DNA of 64,000 bases from Lachnospiraceae bacterium (GTDB taxonomy: Bacteria > Bacillota > Clostridia > Lachnospirales > Lachnospiraceae). The notes beneath the pieces are model-generated. The model had not been told where the DNA came from. It worked only from the letters and a program-made list of their open reading frames with translations, and did no database searches. Made by a program: the position numbers and the translations under genes. Shown piece by piece: positions 58,358 through 63,298 of the stretch; positions within the stretch are counted from its first letter, which is position 1, and each line of letters starts with the position of its first letter. The stretch covers positions 1-64,000 of the forward strand of contig JAFSBX010000136.1 of NCBI GenBank assembly GCA_017437065.1, in the 5' to 3' direction.

Positions 58358-59200
58358 TTATTTAGTTTGTTTTTTCAAAGTTTCAATTTCTGCACGAAGT
58401 CTTTCGTTTTCAGATGTGATATTGGAAATAATAACATCTTTTTCAGCAATAGCTTTTTCATAAGCCCTTAAATCCTGATAATATTCTTCCCTATCCCGGC
58501 AACGTTTTTTTATCTGCTCGTCAGCACTTAACTGAAACATAGTTTTTGAAGCTTCGTTAAGATATTCATTCTTTTCGGCTAACATCTTAATCTCCTCCCA
58601 TGTTTTTGCTTTGAAGAGAGCCGCCCATTGATCTATATGGTATGACCTATCTTCGTCAGTTGCTAAGTTTATCTGAGTTAAGTCTACCATAGACAGAGTA
58701 AGATTGTCACTGTAGATATGCTGATTTTTTACATTCATAAGTTTATAAGTAGCATAAAATTCAGGATGGTCAGGAAAGAGCGTGTAATCAAGGAAACCGA
58801 TATGTATAACAGCTTTTGCTTCAGAGTAATTCTGTCCGTGATGGAGTTGGTCAAAAGAGCGGCAAAGGTAACTGATAGAGCGGTTTTGCCAATTGAGTTT
58901 ATTTGTTATCTGCATTTCTAAATTTATGTAAGTATTGTCATTTAGAAGAACATTAATATCCAGACGAAATTCTTTATCTTCTAAAGCTTTTCCAAGAATA
59001 ATAGGATTGGTAATGTCAACGGAAATAACTTCTTGTTCTTCAAGATGAAGAAGTGAACATATAAGTCCTCTTAAAACATGATTATTTTTCTGAAGAACAG
59101 CTCGAAACATGTAATCATTAATCATGTTATAAGGAATTTTACCGGTAGCGTTTTGAAAAGAGATATCAAAGTTAGATTGATTGAGTTCGATTTGATTCAT
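58358..59200 (-). CDS. Rpn/PD-(D/E)XK nuclease family protein
   Basis: Protein of 280 residues belonging to the Rpn (recombination-promoting nuclease) and PDDEXK_2 families. The N-terminal YNMINDYMFRAVLQ starts the domain. FRLDINVLLNDNTYINLEMQITN is the metal-binding core with Asp and the E-x-Q motif. A coiled coil (about 235-280) closes it. The family is linked to mobile elements and is often present in many copies; no transposon ends are seen here. AGGA lies eight bases before the ATG. It may be a domesticated or decaying copy. Confidence 0.88.
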   Translation of the reverse strand: MNQIELNQSNFDISFQNATGKIPYNMINDYMFRAVLQKNNHVLRGLICSLLHLEEQEVISVDITNPIILGKALEDKEFRLDINVLLNDNTYINLEMQITNKLNWQNRSISYLCRSFDQLHHGQNYSEAKAVIHIGFLDYTLFPDHPEFYATYKLMNVKNQHIYSDNLTLSMVDLTQINLATDEDRSYHIDQWAALFKAKTWEEIKMLAEKNEYLNEASKTMFQLSADEQIKKRCRDREEYYQDLRAYEKAIAEKDVIISNITSENERLRAEIETLKKQTK

Positions 59201-59514
59201 AGATTTGTTCCTTTCTGAGAAAATAGAATTTAATAAATGAAAAAATATGCTGAAATCGCCGAAACTAAATTATTTTAGTTAAGAAGAAATGATTTACACA
59301 ATTGAAATACTGTGCGACTCATAAATTTTTATATCATGTCATGGTATAAAAAACAATAACTTTTTATTGTATACAAATAAAAAAATAAATATGAAATATT
59401 GATAAGAACATTGTTTTTGACTAAATATAGTATTTGCATTTTTTATAAAGAAGAAAAAATACAATATCTTGTATTGTACAATTTGTTTAAAGAACTGGTT
59501 AATTAATATAAAAA
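59201..59514. other. AT-rich gap, no gene seen
   Basis: About 315 very AT-rich bases between the Rpn gene and the terminator of the CNNM gene. Two small hairpins are visible: 59263-59280 (AACTAAA/TTTAGTT) and 59353-59370 (ACAATAA/TTATTGT). No RNA gene or promoter was identified with confidence. Confidence 0.5.
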
Positions 59515-59602
59515 AGCAACCTACAATTGAAGCCAATCCTTTCTGTTAAACCTGTATTTATCTAATAAAATTGATTCACTCCAAATTAACTTGCAGGTTG
59601 CT
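59515..59602 (-). terminator. Long-loop terminator after the CNNM gene
   Basis: A 12-bp stem with one mismatch (59591-59602 with 59515-59526) encloses 64 bases and is followed on the minus strand by a T run. It begins about 33 bases after the stop of the CNNM gene. Its interior is unusually long for a simple terminator. Confidence 0.7.
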
Positions 59603-59634
59603 AAAAAAATAAATTTTTATGTTTACATTTTTAT

Positions 59635-60948
59635 TTATACTGACTCTTTATTATTAGAAGAGAGTAATCTTACCACTGCATCCTCAATTCTATGATGCTT
59701 TACACTATTCACATGAATAGCCAATTCATTTATTTCCACATCAAAACTCGCCCCATTTTCCGGCACTTCCCCAAGAAAACCGCATATGTAACCGCTGAAA
59801 GTGTCGTATTCTTCAGAAGGAAGTTCCACCTGCAGTTGTGCTGCCACAGCCTCCAAAGGAGCAGACCCTTGAATGACCCATTCCGTGTTATCAGTCTGAA
59901 TAATATCATCCGGTTTCTCTTCATCCGTGTCTTCGATTAACTCACCAACAAGCAGCTCCAACAAATCCCGCATCGTAACAATTCCGCTCATGCCACCATA
60001 TTCGTCAAGGACAACGGCAAAGTAGCAGCCGGATTTTTTCATCTTTGCAAAAAGAACATCTGCTTTCATGGTCTCCGGTACAAAGAATGGCTTTTTCACA
60101 GCACTATTCAATACCGTTTCTTTTGAATCAAACGTCATTCTAAGGTAATCTTTAGAGTCCAAAATACCGATAATATCGTCATTAGTTTCACCACACACAG
60201 GATAAAAATTGTGTCTGGTAGAAAAAATAGTTTTGTTCCACTCCTCAATCTCATCCTCAAGATATAAACTGATAACGTCTCTTCTGTGTGTACAGATTTC
60301 TTCCAAAGGAGTGTCATCAAATTCAAAAATATTTTGTATCATTTCGTTTTCTGTAGAATCAATTGTACCCTTTTCACTTCCGGCCTCTACCATCATACGA
60401 ATTTCTTCTTCTGTAACCTGCTCTTCCTCATTAGGATCAATACCCATCAGGCACAGAACACCATTTGTAGAAGCAGTTAAGAGCCATACAAGCGGTGCAA
60501 AAAATATGGAAACAATAGTCAGAATGCCGGAAAGGGCAAATGACATACTTTCTGCTTTCTGCATGGCAATTCGCTTTGGAATCAATTCGCCGAACACAAT
60601 ACTAAAATATGCAATAATCAGTGTAATAAGAAATACGCAAATGGAATTTAAAGCATTTTCAGGAATAAAAATACCTGCATTCACAAGTATAGCTACAAGT
60701 GGTGCAGCGAAGTTATCAGCTGCATAAGCACTTCCAAGAAAACCGGCAAGAGTAATGGCAACCTGTATCGTTGCAAGGAATTTAGCCGGATTTTCCGTTA
60801 GAGAAATAAGCCGTGCAGCTTTTTTATTTCCTTCTCCGGCAAGTTTTTCAAGTTTTGTTCCATTCATGGAAAGCACAGCAAGCTCCGCACTGGCAAAGAT
60901 TGCATTCAAAAAAATCAATATAATCTGTAAAATAATTGCTCCAATCAT
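59635..60948 (-). CDS. CNNM/CorC-HlyC family transporter (hemolysin family)
   Basis: Membrane protein of 437 residues. A DUF21 domain with about four membrane segments (about 1-190) is followed by two CBS domains (about 215-330) and a C-terminal CorC/HlyC domain (about 350-430, ending near EYDTFSGYICGFLGEVPENGASF). MpfA-type relatives export magnesium or set cobalt and magnesium resistance. I chose the ATG at 60948 with GGAGG 12 bases upstream; the frame is open to 61074 but that lies inside the leader. A consensus promoter, a leader ORF and a terminator precede it. Confidence 0.88.
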   Translation of the reverse strand: MIGAIILQIILIFLNAIFASAELAVLSMNGTKLEKLAGEGNKKAARLISLTENPAKFLATIQVAITLAGFLGSAYAADNFAAPLVAILVNAGIFIPENALNSICVFLITLIIAYFSIVFGELIPKRIAMQKAESMSFALSGILTIVSIFFAPLVWLLTASTNGVLCLMGIDPNEEEQVTEEEIRMMVEAGSEKGTIDSTENEMIQNIFEFDDTPLEEICTHRRDVISLYLEDEIEEWNKTIFSTRHNFYPVCGETNDDIIGILDSKDYLRMTFDSKETVLNSAVKKPFFVPETMKADVLFAKMKKSGCYFAVVLDEYGGMSGIVTMRDLLELLVGELIEDTDEEKPDDIIQTDNTEWVIQGSAPLEAVAAQLQVELPSEEYDTFSGYICGFLGEVPENGASFDVEINELAIHVNSVKHHRIEDAVVRLLSSNNKESV

Positions 60949-60971
60949 AAAAAGTAAAATCCTCCAAATTG

Positions 60972-60995
60972 CTAACGCTTTCTTGTATGCGTTAG
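60972..60995 (-). promoter_or_regulatory. Hairpin just before the CNNM ribosome binding site
   Basis: CTAACGC and GCGTTAG (7 bp, 10-nt loop) lie seven bases upstream of the GGAGG of the CNNM gene. It could affect ribosome access, but this is untested inference. Confidence 0.4.
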
Positions 60996-61057
60996 AGTAA
61001 TGTATAATTTGTAAATATTGCGATAAGCATTTAATACTATAAAAAATGAACACAAAA

Positions 61058-61102
61058 GGGCACAGCCTGTGCATCGTTTTAATTTAAGCACAGACTGTAC
61101 CC
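61058..61102 (-). terminator. Leader terminator of the CNNM gene
   Basis: On the minus strand a 15-bp stem with two G-U pairs (61088-61102 with 61058-61072) and a 15-nt loop is followed by TTTTGTG. Its 5' arm begins one base after the stop codon of the leader ORF. Confidence 0.85.
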
Positions 61103-61103
61103 T

Positions 61104-61175
61104 CTATATATTCATATTAGTCCATGGAGTTAAAATACAATATGCAGACGTATCCGCGTTCCCGTCATCTTCCAT
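61104..61175 (-). CDS. Candidate 23-codon leader peptide of the CNNM gene
   Basis: The ORF encodes MEDDGNADT and continues to an Ile before TAG. Three acidic residues follow the start Met. AGGAGG lies 11 bases upstream of the ATG, a little further than average. The TAG stop is one base before the leader terminator, so a ribosome finishing this ORF would cover the terminator's 5' arm. A second frame from an ATG right after AGGAGG is possible but less well placed. Confidence 0.6.
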   Translation of the reverse strand: MEDDGNADTSAYCILTPWTNMNI

Positions 61176-61247
61176 GTTCTAATCATCCTCCTAACAGTTC
61201 CAATTTGTAATGTGAATAAAATATTTCCAGTTACGCTAACTATTGAT

Positions 61248-61276
61248 ATTATATGTAGCAGGAAAAAAAGTGTCAA
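61248..61276 (-). promoter_or_regulatory. Perfect consensus promoter of the CNNM leader
   Basis: On the minus strand TTGACA (61276-61271), exactly 17 bases, then TATAAT (61253-61248). Transcription should start near 61241, about 290 bases before the CNNM start codon. Confidence 0.9.
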
Positions 61277-61477
61277 TTTTCTGTGCCGTAAAGATTTTGT
61301 GAAAAACCCTATTTTTGATAAAGGTATAAACTCTAAAAAACAGATTTTATTAAATTAAAATTGCGAAAAATAAAACTTAGGAATTGGTATAACAAAAAAT
61401 CTATGATAAAATAAGCTCAAATTATTTTCCTATAATAATGATATGAAAAATAATAAAAATGAAATTGAGGATTGTGC
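61277..61477. promoter_or_regulatory. Divergent promoter region of the HTH/TPR regulator
   Basis: About 200 AT-rich bases without a gene. On the plus strand TTGGTA, 17 bases, TAAAAT occurs around 61384-61413 and may drive the HTH/TPR gene. No operator was identified. Confidence 0.45.
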
Positions 61478-63298
61478 ATGCGAAATAAAAACATAGGGAA
61501 AATCATCTATACTCTAAGAACATGTAATCATATTTCACAGGAAAAGCTGGCAAGGGGACTATGTTCCGTTGCCGCTTTATCAAGAATAGAAGCATGTGAA
61601 CGGGTACCGGACAAGTTGCTTTTAGACGCATTATTACAAAGACTGGGAAAATCTCCTGATAAATTGGAGTCTATCATAACGGTAGGAGATTATGAGCTTT
61701 ATTTATACAGAGAAAAAATACAGGGATGTATCATAGATGAAAACTATGAAGAAGCAAAAGCGTTGCTGGATATGTATGCACAGAAAAAGGAAGCAGAAGA
61801 GAAGGTACATAAACAGTACATATTAAAAATAAAAGCTGCTTTAAGTAAGCTTGCGGATAAGGATATAGCGGCAAGCGAAAAATATATAGAAGAGGCTGTA
61901 AAAATTACTATGCCGGACGGCACAAGAGCAGCATTAGAAAATTCCCTTTTATCTGTTTCAGAAATACAGTTAATTTTAATGAGAATAAGTCAGTATCAAA
62001 ATAAAAATGAAGATGAACAGGTGTGGGAAGTATTAAGTAAATTGAACACATATGTGAGAGAACATTATACTGACGAAGAAGAGCTGGTTAAAATTTATAT
62101 TAAAATAGCCAGAGCAGAGGCACGAATCCTATTGGAAAGAAAACAGTACGATAAGGCTGTAAAGGTATGTGAGTCAGCTTTGGAGCTGCTTGGCAGAAAT
62201 GGTTTATTAATAAACTATCATGCAATGTTGTTTATGCTGATAGAAGGTCTGGAACATTTGAATGAGCCTGATAAACTGGCTAAAATGAAAAAATGGAGAG
62301 ATACTTTAAATAAATTATATGAAGAATACAGTGTGCATCCGATAGGAGAAAACTCTTTTCTTTTTGCAGAAAGCAGTCAGTGTGAAATATTGCTTGTTAA
62401 TGAGTTAATACAGAGAGGACGGAAAACAAAGGGATTTACGCAGGAAAAATTAAGTGAAGATATATGCACACCGGAAAATCTGTCCGCCATAGAAAGCGGT
62501 AAGCGCGCGCCGAGTATTAAACATTATGACAAAATAATGGAAAAGCTGGGTATGCATAAAGATTTTTATAACAGCTTTCTTTCCGCGGAATTGTTTGAAA
62601 TTCATGAACTCAGAAGAGAATGTAACAGGTTAATTTATCTTAGAAAATTTATGGAGGCAGAAAAAATACTGGAAAAAATCACGGAGTTAATCGATACCGG
62701 TATTCCCATTAATGAGCAGTATATTTTGTATAATAAAGTTCTTGTGCAAGAGGAACAGGAGAAAATGAATGTGGAAGAAGCTTTGAACGAAGTAATAAAA
62801 GCTTTGGAGTTAACATTCAATTATAATGATGGGAATTTTAAAACGGATGTAATTCTGGCGCAGGAAGAAGTAAAAATAATTAACTATATTTGTACATTGT
62901 ACAGAAAAATGAACCAGACAGAAAAAGCAATTGCTGTTTACAGGAAGGTAGTAGAGAGCTATCAGTCCAGTAAAGTATCCGAAAGAGGACATTATACAGG
63001 ATACAACTTAATTATGGCAAATTTGTGTATTAGTCTGGAAGAAACAAATCAGATAGAAGAGAGTATGAAAATAGCAAGACAAGGAATTACACAGGCATTA
63101 AATTGCGGAAGGGGAAGTCTTTTACCTGATTTTCTGGCAAATAAGGCATGTTGTTTTGAGAAAATGGATAATAAAAAAGCTTGCGGAGAATATCTGCAGC
63201 AAGCTTTTTATATGAGTGACATGATGAAAAATGATTTTTTTAATAATGCAATAAAAAAATATTATGAGGATCGTTATGAAAAAATTGTATGGTATTAA
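61478..63298 (+). CDS. Tandem HTH/TPR regulator (XRE family)
   Basis: Protein of 606 residues with two XRE-type helix-turn-helix domains: residues about 5-60 (ISQEKLARGLCSVAALSRIEACERVPD) and about 305-365 (FTQEKLSEDICTPENLSAIESGKRAPS). Each is followed by a helical TPR-like region. The arrangement of HTH plus TPR recalls the RRNPP family that binds signalling peptides, but here the pattern occurs twice in one chain. I chose the ATG at 61478 with GAGG seven bases upstream; a TTG two codons earlier has the site too close. The C terminus overlaps a tiny minus-strand ORF. Confidence 0.82.
   Translation: MRNKNIGKIIYTLRTCNHISQEKLARGLCSVAALSRIEACERVPDKLLLDALLQRLGKSPDKLESIITVGDYELYLYREKIQGCIIDENYEEAKALLDMYAQKKEAEEKVHKQYILKIKAALSKLADKDIAASEKYIEEAVKITMPDGTRAALENSLLSVSEIQLILMRISQYQNKNEDEQVWEVLSKLNTYVREHYTDEEELVKIYIKIARAEARILLERKQYDKAVKVCESALELLGRNGLLINYHAMLFMLIEGLEHLNEPDKLAKMKKWRDTLNKLYEEYSVHPIGENSFLFAESSQCEILLVNELIQRGRKTKGFTQEKLSEDICTPENLSAIESGKRAPSIKHYDKIMEKLGMHKDFYNSFLSAELFEIHELRRECNRLIYLRKFMEAEKILEKITELIDTGIPINEQYILYNKVLVQEEQEKMNVEEALNEVIKALELTFNYNDGNFKTDVILAQEEVKIINYICTLYRKMNQTEKAIAVYRKVVESYQSSKVSERGHYTGYNLIMANLCISLEETNQIEESMKIARQGITQALNCGRGSLLPDFLANKACCFEKMDNKKACGEYLQQAFYMSDMMKNDFFNNAIKKYYEDRYEKIVWY

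Follow-up and report, generated by a model that had tools for sequence, protein, structure and literature searches.

How is a CNNM/CorC-type transporter gene controlled when, between its promoter and its start codon, a short acidic ORF is followed directly by an intrinsic terminator, and could the ribosome translating that ORF be the switch? The question is raised by the window, i.e. the whole 64,000-nucleotide stretch of Lachnospiraceae DNA (contig JAFSBX010000136.1) analysed here. To answer it, the parts of the locus, their conservation, the geometry of the terminator and the specificity of the arrangement were examined in turn.

An acidic leader ORF ends at an intrinsic terminator upstream of the CNNM/CorC gene

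On the minus strand of the window, a consensus promoter, a Shine-Dalgarno (SD) sequence, a 23-codon acidic ORF, a strong terminator at the ORF stop and the CNNM/CorC gene follow one another (Table 1). The initial annotation had given this order, from a perfect promoter through an ORF starting MEDDGNADT to the terminator and the CNNM gene, and every part was confirmed in its position. The promoter is the sole 12/12 site listed within 58500-62500. The 5′ arm of the terminator had been placed one base past the leader stop, which holds for the hairpin core, GGGTACAG; in its extended form the stem includes the stop codon as well. Folding of 61040-61240 gave an RNA structure 6.1 standard deviations better than those of dinucleotide shuffles, none of 200 shuffles being as good.

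Table 1. Features of the leader and the transporter gene in the window
Feature	Position	Strand	Basis
Promoter TTGACA-17-TATAAT	61276-61248	-	12/12 consensus
SD sequence AGGAGG of the leader ORF	61192-61187	-	sequence
Leader ORF, 23 codons, ATG at 61175, MEDDGNADTSAYCILTPWTNMNI, stop TAG	61175-61104	-	sequence; kept in the same-genus relative; leaders of this type occur across the phylum
Codons 2-8, EDDGNAD, proposed ribosome-destabilising sensor	61152-61172	-	position profile and conservation in the relative; putative function
Start-codon hairpin, 5′ half CATGGA	61171-61176	-	pairs with 61128-61123; alone p = 0.065 here
Start-codon hairpin, 3′ half TCCATG, late in the leader ORF	61123-61128	-	fold
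Intrinsic terminator stem-loop, 5′ arm from the stop codon on	61056-61104	-	fold; stem covaries
T-rich tail, TTTT 61057-61054 and TTTTTT 61046-61041	61041-61057	-	sequence
CNNM/CorC transporter gene, start codon ATG at 60948	59635-60948	-	CNNM, CBS and CorC_HlyC domains

The product of the CNNM/CorC gene matched PF01595 (6.2e-49), PF03471 (1.8e-16) and PF00571 (1.5e-13), and is related in sequence to the solved CNNM-family structures 7m1u, 7m1t and 7cff; its role in Mg2+ transport or regulation is a putative one, assigned through homology. A mechanically called ORF start for this gene at 61074 was taken as spurious, because that position lies within the terminator. A second small hairpin, CTAACGC/GCGTTAG (60972-60995, minus strand), stands directly before the CNNM ribosome site, and a differently spelled one, GGCG/CGCC, was seen by eye in the matching place of a same-genus relative.

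The leader recurs upstream of CNNM orthologs in many families

The genus was sampled by three genomes, that of the window included. A CNNM of this type was found in two of them, the second being 86% identical, and the leader is present in both; the third gave no leader match, and its best CNNM reached only 33% identity. The leader of the same-genus relative, MEDDGNADTSTYYIFIPWDNRNI up to its stop, differs from that of the window by one synonymous base in codons 1-10 and by seven bases in codons 11-23, where six codons are changed, all six non-synonymously. With silent change only in the first ten codons and residue changes after them, it is therefore the acidic beginning of the peptide that is kept. 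The promoter is kept as well, as TTGACT-17-TATAAT. An exact search of public genomes for the leader peptide motif returned one match, this same relative (JAGKTQ010000027.1), and no match to the leader was found in the plasmid and phage collections searched. Two viral-contig matches shared one sequence stretch, lay outside any leader-terminator arrangement, and were judged by eye to be chance.

CNNM orthologs, defined by E <= 1e-90, occur in a minority of genomes (47/299 in the family and 76/392 in the order). The family and order searches yielded 112 distinct CNNM loci, all of which were read, and 98 of them, whose intergenic region measured 110 nt or more, were counted. As controls, 169 genes of other kinds were taken from the window and from twenty 20-kb segments of genomes carrying such a CNNM. 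Net acid, i.e. D/E minus K/R, was scored over codons 2-10 of a small ORF preceded by an SD sequence. A leader ORF with a net acid of at least 3 was found at 56 of 98 CNNM loci versus 4 of 169 control genes (Fisher p 8.9e-26), and one with at least 2 at 66 of 98 versus 13 of 169. The two cut-offs were failed by 42 and 32 of the 98 loci, respectively, some of which carry weaker acidic ORFs. With each genus of the family represented by a single genome, 24 of 39 had a leader with a net acid of at least 3. The class and phylum searches matched 111 and 35 genomes; the best-scoring 56 newly returned loci (L144-L199) were examined, and leaders at this cut-off were found in 28 of the 51 counted.

Because the loci share descent, such p-values overstate their independence, and counting by genus and by family gives a fairer picture. 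Over all 168 loci, an acidic leader was present in 63 of 103 genera with room for one, or in 59 of 103 after eight doubtful leaders (L040, L052, L093, L108, L149, L176, L177 and L198) were left out; with these dropped, it was present in 23 of 39 families. These figures use family and genus codes entered by hand from genome listings, and a sample of species-representative genomes, many of them drafts. To avoid circularity, leaders were also chosen blind to charge, by a terminator and an ORF with a ribosome site that reaches it. Among the 149 of 168 loci that pass the same 110-nt limit on intergenic space, such an ORF was found in 61, versus 4 of 169 controls, and 58 of the 61 CNNM leaders had a net acid of at least 2, versus none of the four control ORFs. 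Together, the recurrence of the same arrangement before CNNM in many related families suggests a widespread candidate ribosome-stability switch.

The idea that the acidic start shifts into the CNNM protein when the leader is absent was only weakly supported and was set aside; CNNM N-termini with at least two D/E were more frequent at leaderless loci (15/62) than at those with a leader (10/97, p 0.025).

Charge, rather than residue or base sequence, is conserved in the leader peptide

A position profile was built from 84 distinct leaders, obtained from 95 by merging those with identical first 10 residues, the eight doubtful ones being excluded. In this set, which was chosen partly by acidity, the D/E share was 92% at codon 2, 71% at codon 3, 38-40% at codons 4 and 6, 55% at codon 8 and 25% at codon 10, and fell to 2-11% from codon 11 on; reciprocally, K/R made up 0% in codons 2-6 and 10-25% from codon 11 on. 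Codon 2 was D in 61 and E in 16 of the 84 leaders. Since D and E interchange and each is encoded by both of its codons, it is the charge that is kept, rather than the residue or the base sequence, and this fits the acidic sensor proposed in the initial annotation. Variants include MDDNSDSDND, MDADSDSDAN, MEDSFGEEGS, MEQEAAEESDNPKP and MDDSPLPER, the last exemplifying the proline added in some lineages. D, S, N and G are abundant in the leaders, whose filler residues vary; lengths range from 15 to 58 residues, and the C-terminal halves show no conservation.

The terminator lies within reach of a ribosome at the end of the leader

A hairpin with a T-run was found after or overlapping 62 of 66 acidic leaders, a set that still includes four doubtful ones, compared with 10.4 expected from shuffles. 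In 47 of these 62, the first base of the stem lies within a span from 38 nt upstream to 16 nt downstream of the leader stop, and in 12 the ORF extends past the whole terminator; altogether, the stem starts no more than 16 nt after the stop, or within the ORF, in 59 of 62. The three outliers are L040 and L093, which are probably no leaders, and L073, where the program chose an inner hairpin while a longer stem is visible. Therefore, with the known size of the ribosome footprint, a ribosome at the ORF end would cover the 5′ arm of the terminator or would already have melted it. The comparison across relatives that had been put forward as a check, of early acidic codons and of the distance from stop to terminator, thus came out strongly in favour of the leader on the locus, geometry and family counts alike. 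A promoter with at least 10 of 12 consensus positions lies within 120 nt upstream of 37 of the 62 leaders, versus 4.3% of single-base shuffles.

In an alignment of 14 leaders, 8 of the 14 terminator stem pairs keep their pairing via changes on both sides. Pairing of the leader with the 5′ arm of the terminator, as an antiterminator would require, did not exceed chance, with p < 0.05 in 1 of 55 leaders; a trp-like antiterminator was rejected on this ground. Given the stem covariation and an antiterminator signal no higher than chance, the likeliest switch is the ribosome itself; the geometry and this null result both support the earlier proposal that a ribosome at the stop masks the terminator and turns the gene on.

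A hairpin sequestering the leader start codon reached p < 0.05 in 15 of 62 leaders, 4 of them below 0.01. Its pairing is spelled TACATGGA/TCCATGTA in the window's family and CGGCATG/TATGCCG in another, and L037 has a GTG start codon with a matching change in the hairpin. This hairpin could shut the leader start after ribosome drop-off, and is lineage-specific rather than general, an accessory at most. Separately, in L016, L021, L023, L027, L037 and L038 the last leader codons pair with bases ahead of the CNNM ribosome site, the terminator lying between the two paired segments; such pairing fell below p 0.05 in 9 of 55 leaders.

The leader is largely confined to one clade of CNNM genes

A covariance model of the leader matched the window's genome at the window locus (E 1.6e-25) as its sole clear match, the next best elsewhere having an E of 0.04. 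Run on 20 related genomes, 13 of which had supplied model sequences, it recovered the CNNM leader in 19, missing it only in the genus member that has no close CNNM. The 20 genomes also yielded three further strong matches (E below 1e-6). One (L228, near 1501-1640) is a CNNM-type acidic leader with a terminator before a gene for the beta subunit of a Na+-translocating decarboxylase (OAD-beta, a Na+ pump); another (L229) stands before a paralogous CNNM; and the third (L230, near 1501-1640), with a peptide beginning MYDAASSDSDRNDD, resembles these leaders and precedes an ABC-transporter ATPase gene; its ribosome site looks weak. A weaker match, L232 (E 4e-4), showed no such leader on reading. With genes for a Na+-pump subunit and an ABC ATPase also preceded by such leaders, the signal may extend beyond Mg2+.

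As further controls, the best 30 loci each were taken from 106 genomes matching OAD-beta and 59 matching the paralogous CNNM, leaving 24 and 21 loci with room. Of the OAD-beta loci, 1 of 24 had a leader with a net acid of at least 3, that of L228, and of the paralogous CNNM loci 2 of 21 had one, L229 included; by these counts, which thus contain the two loci that had prompted the control, the leader as a general transporter feature was rejected. Rfam cis-regulators, including the M-box and T-box, gave no gathering-score match in the window leader or in the leaders of 13 relatives, and at low threshold the window locus returned only look-alikes far below gathering scores. In particular, no M-box (RF00380) was found at the window locus or in the window's draft genome, while the controls in Bacillus subtilis and Lactococcus lactis were found. 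A T-box leader is present in relative L027 (2847-3045, plus strand), downstream of the CNNM and outside the leader.

A proposed model of ribosome-dependent antitermination and its alternatives

We put at roughly 0.6 the probability that the CNNM gene is controlled by transcription attenuation that depends on translation of the leader and in which the acidic nascent chain is the sensor. RNA polymerase would start at the promoter and make the leader, on which a ribosome would load and read M-E-D-D-G-N-A-D. A ribosome surviving the acidic codons would reach the stop and cover the first bases of the terminator 5′ arm, or, in members whose ORF runs right through the terminator, would melt the hairpin; with the hairpin blocked beside the T-run, transcription would continue into the CNNM gene (ON). 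Early ribosome drop-off on the acidic chain would let the terminator form and leave the gene OFF, and in some lineages would also let a hairpin hide the leader's own start codon.

Acidic nascent chains are known to destabilise ribosomes in E. coli/Salmonella and in eukaryotes; to our knowledge, this effect is not known from this phylum, and its use as an environmental sensor rests on few enterobacterial cases. According to the available parts of PMC11282234, PMC8092293 and PMC12421838, which cite Chadani and colleagues, early acidic residues, such as those of MgtL and MgtQ, pause or release ribosomes, release being more likely at low Mg2+. Since acidic-chain drop-off is known at low Mg2+, high Mg2+ would here be ON and low Mg2+ OFF, as would fit a Mg2+-exporting or Mg2+-protecting protein. 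Being on at sufficient Mg2+ would suit a CNNM, because the S. aureus CNNM relative MpfA is given as a key factor in high-Mg2+ tolerance (PMC5122736, accessible text), and expression of corC and mgpA in Salmonella is raised at high Mg2+, the CorC N-terminus being described as a destabilising sequence (PMC12421838, accessible text); direct movement of Mg2+ by CNNM proteins is stated as unsettled in the accessible text of PMC8242095. Mg2+ as the signal, ribosome drop-off at the leader, the direction of the response and Mg2+ export by the CNNM are presumed parts of the model. We incline, by a slight preference, to the view that acidic-leader attenuators across the phylum act as a Mg2+ gauge of sign opposite to MgtL, which would keep CNNM/CorC on only at sufficient Mg2+, the module being now and then lent to a paralogous CNNM, a Na+-pump subunit or an ABC transporter.

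The same antitermination might instead report general ribosome performance (energy, ABC-F levels, ribosome-binding drugs, or monovalent-ion and polyamine balance), with the acidic start as its weak point. This alternative shares the terminator-geometry evidence with the Mg2+ reading, and both the rare leader copies before OAD-beta and an ABC ATPase and the action of E. coli EttA on ribosomes at early acidic residues (PMC11282234, available part) would agree with it; however, the leader tracks one clade of a Mg2+-linked family and is scarce at the OAD-beta and paralogous CNNM loci, so that we regard it as unlikely. Attenuation by Asp, Asn or Ser, or by their tRNAs, would account for the abundance of D, S, N and G in the leaders, but the interchange of D and E, foremost at codon 2, the varying fillers, the chance-level pairing with the terminator arm and a gene that is not biosynthetic all argue against it, as does the OFF state that early stalling would give; neither the run of codons for one amino acid nor the antiterminator of trp/his-like attenuators is seen here, and we consider this explanation very improbable.

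That the leader encodes a functional small protein, e.g. a CNNM partner, with the terminator just setting the ratio of two transcripts, could explain why the N-terminus is conserved at the peptide level. Unconserved C-terminal halves, the wide range of lengths and ORFs that read through terminator sequence in 12 of 62 leaders speak against such a protein, which we hold to be quite improbable. Many leaders have a good SD sequence and the sequence data show no response, as expected if translation always masked the terminator and the leader were constitutive; in that case the covarying stem and the conserved acidic start would have no evident reason to persist, and we give this possibility very little credence.

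Comparison with known attenuators

In the pyrBI/pyrL attenuation of E. coli, the leader is translated up to an intrinsic terminator, whose hairpin is blocked by a ribosome nearby, the signal being UTP via polymerase pausing and not the nascent chain. Both features of this type, an ORF reaching or overlapping an intrinsic terminator and the lack of a competing antiterminator hairpin, are seen in the leaders compared here, the second as pairing at chance level over 55 of them. The M-box (ykoK) riboswitch likewise provides Mg2+-linked attenuation and, as described above, has no match there. Like the leader studied here, mgtL of mgtA in Salmonella and E. coli is a short leader before a Mg2+ transporter gene (here so by homology), and its early acidic and proline residues, EPDP, cause ribosome drop-off at low Mg2+ (PMC11282234, accessible text), early acidic codons being present here too. 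However, mgtL precedes an importer gene, acts through a Rho-dependent terminator and, once its translation is finished, gives OFF, whereas here the terminator is intrinsic and a finished ORF should, by geometry, give ON. The mgtQ uORF of Salmonella mgtB also combines early acidic residues (Asp2 and Glu5 are needed) and an RNA-structure switch with a Mg2+ transporter (PMC8092293, accessible text), but acts on the mgtB ribosome-binding site inside the operon rather than on a terminator, and serves an importer. CorC/YbeX of E. coli/Salmonella, with its destabilising N-terminal sequence and high-Mg2+ induction, shares a related gene name and the same expected direction, yet its sensor lies in the protein's own N-terminus and its regulation is called unclear (both from the available part of PMC12421838), in contrast to a separate leader and terminator before a membrane CNNM.

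In the open-access literature searched, with subscription papers and supplements outside the scope, we found no leader described upstream of CNNM/CorC genes of this phylum; the search took in the accessible parts of the attenuator and uORF surveys PMC8632094, PMC11109978, PMC2965389 and PMC6429828 and of the S. aureus small-ORF paper PMC13009471. What would be new, judging from sequence, is a sensor of MgtL/MgtQ type joined to translational antitermination, with a sign opposite to MgtL, before a CNNM. If this is true, the acidic-leader principle would be general, conserved before one transporter clade in more than half of the families examined, and would explain Mg2+-linked CNNM control in Lachnospiraceae and relatives, the window's own genome showing no M-box. 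The 84 distinct natural variants (acidic, acidic with proline, and ending at or reading through the terminator) would provide a test set for relating nascent-chain charge to ribosome stability.

Paralogs and neighbouring genes

Two CNNM paralogs in the window's own genome have no leader: L009, whose N-terminus MGDDGPTAS could carry an acidic sensor within the protein itself, and L006, which has a TTG start and the N-terminus MDTSGVIQ. Downstream of the CNNM gene in the window lies a PD-(D/E)XK transposase-family gene (PF12784; 58358-59200, minus strand). Divergent from the leader, a gene at 61472-63298 (plus strand) encodes HTH domains and an RNPP-like TPR C-terminus. Since a similar HTH/TPR gene adjoins the CNNM in the same-genus relative (L002, by eye), its product may act on the shared intergenic region.
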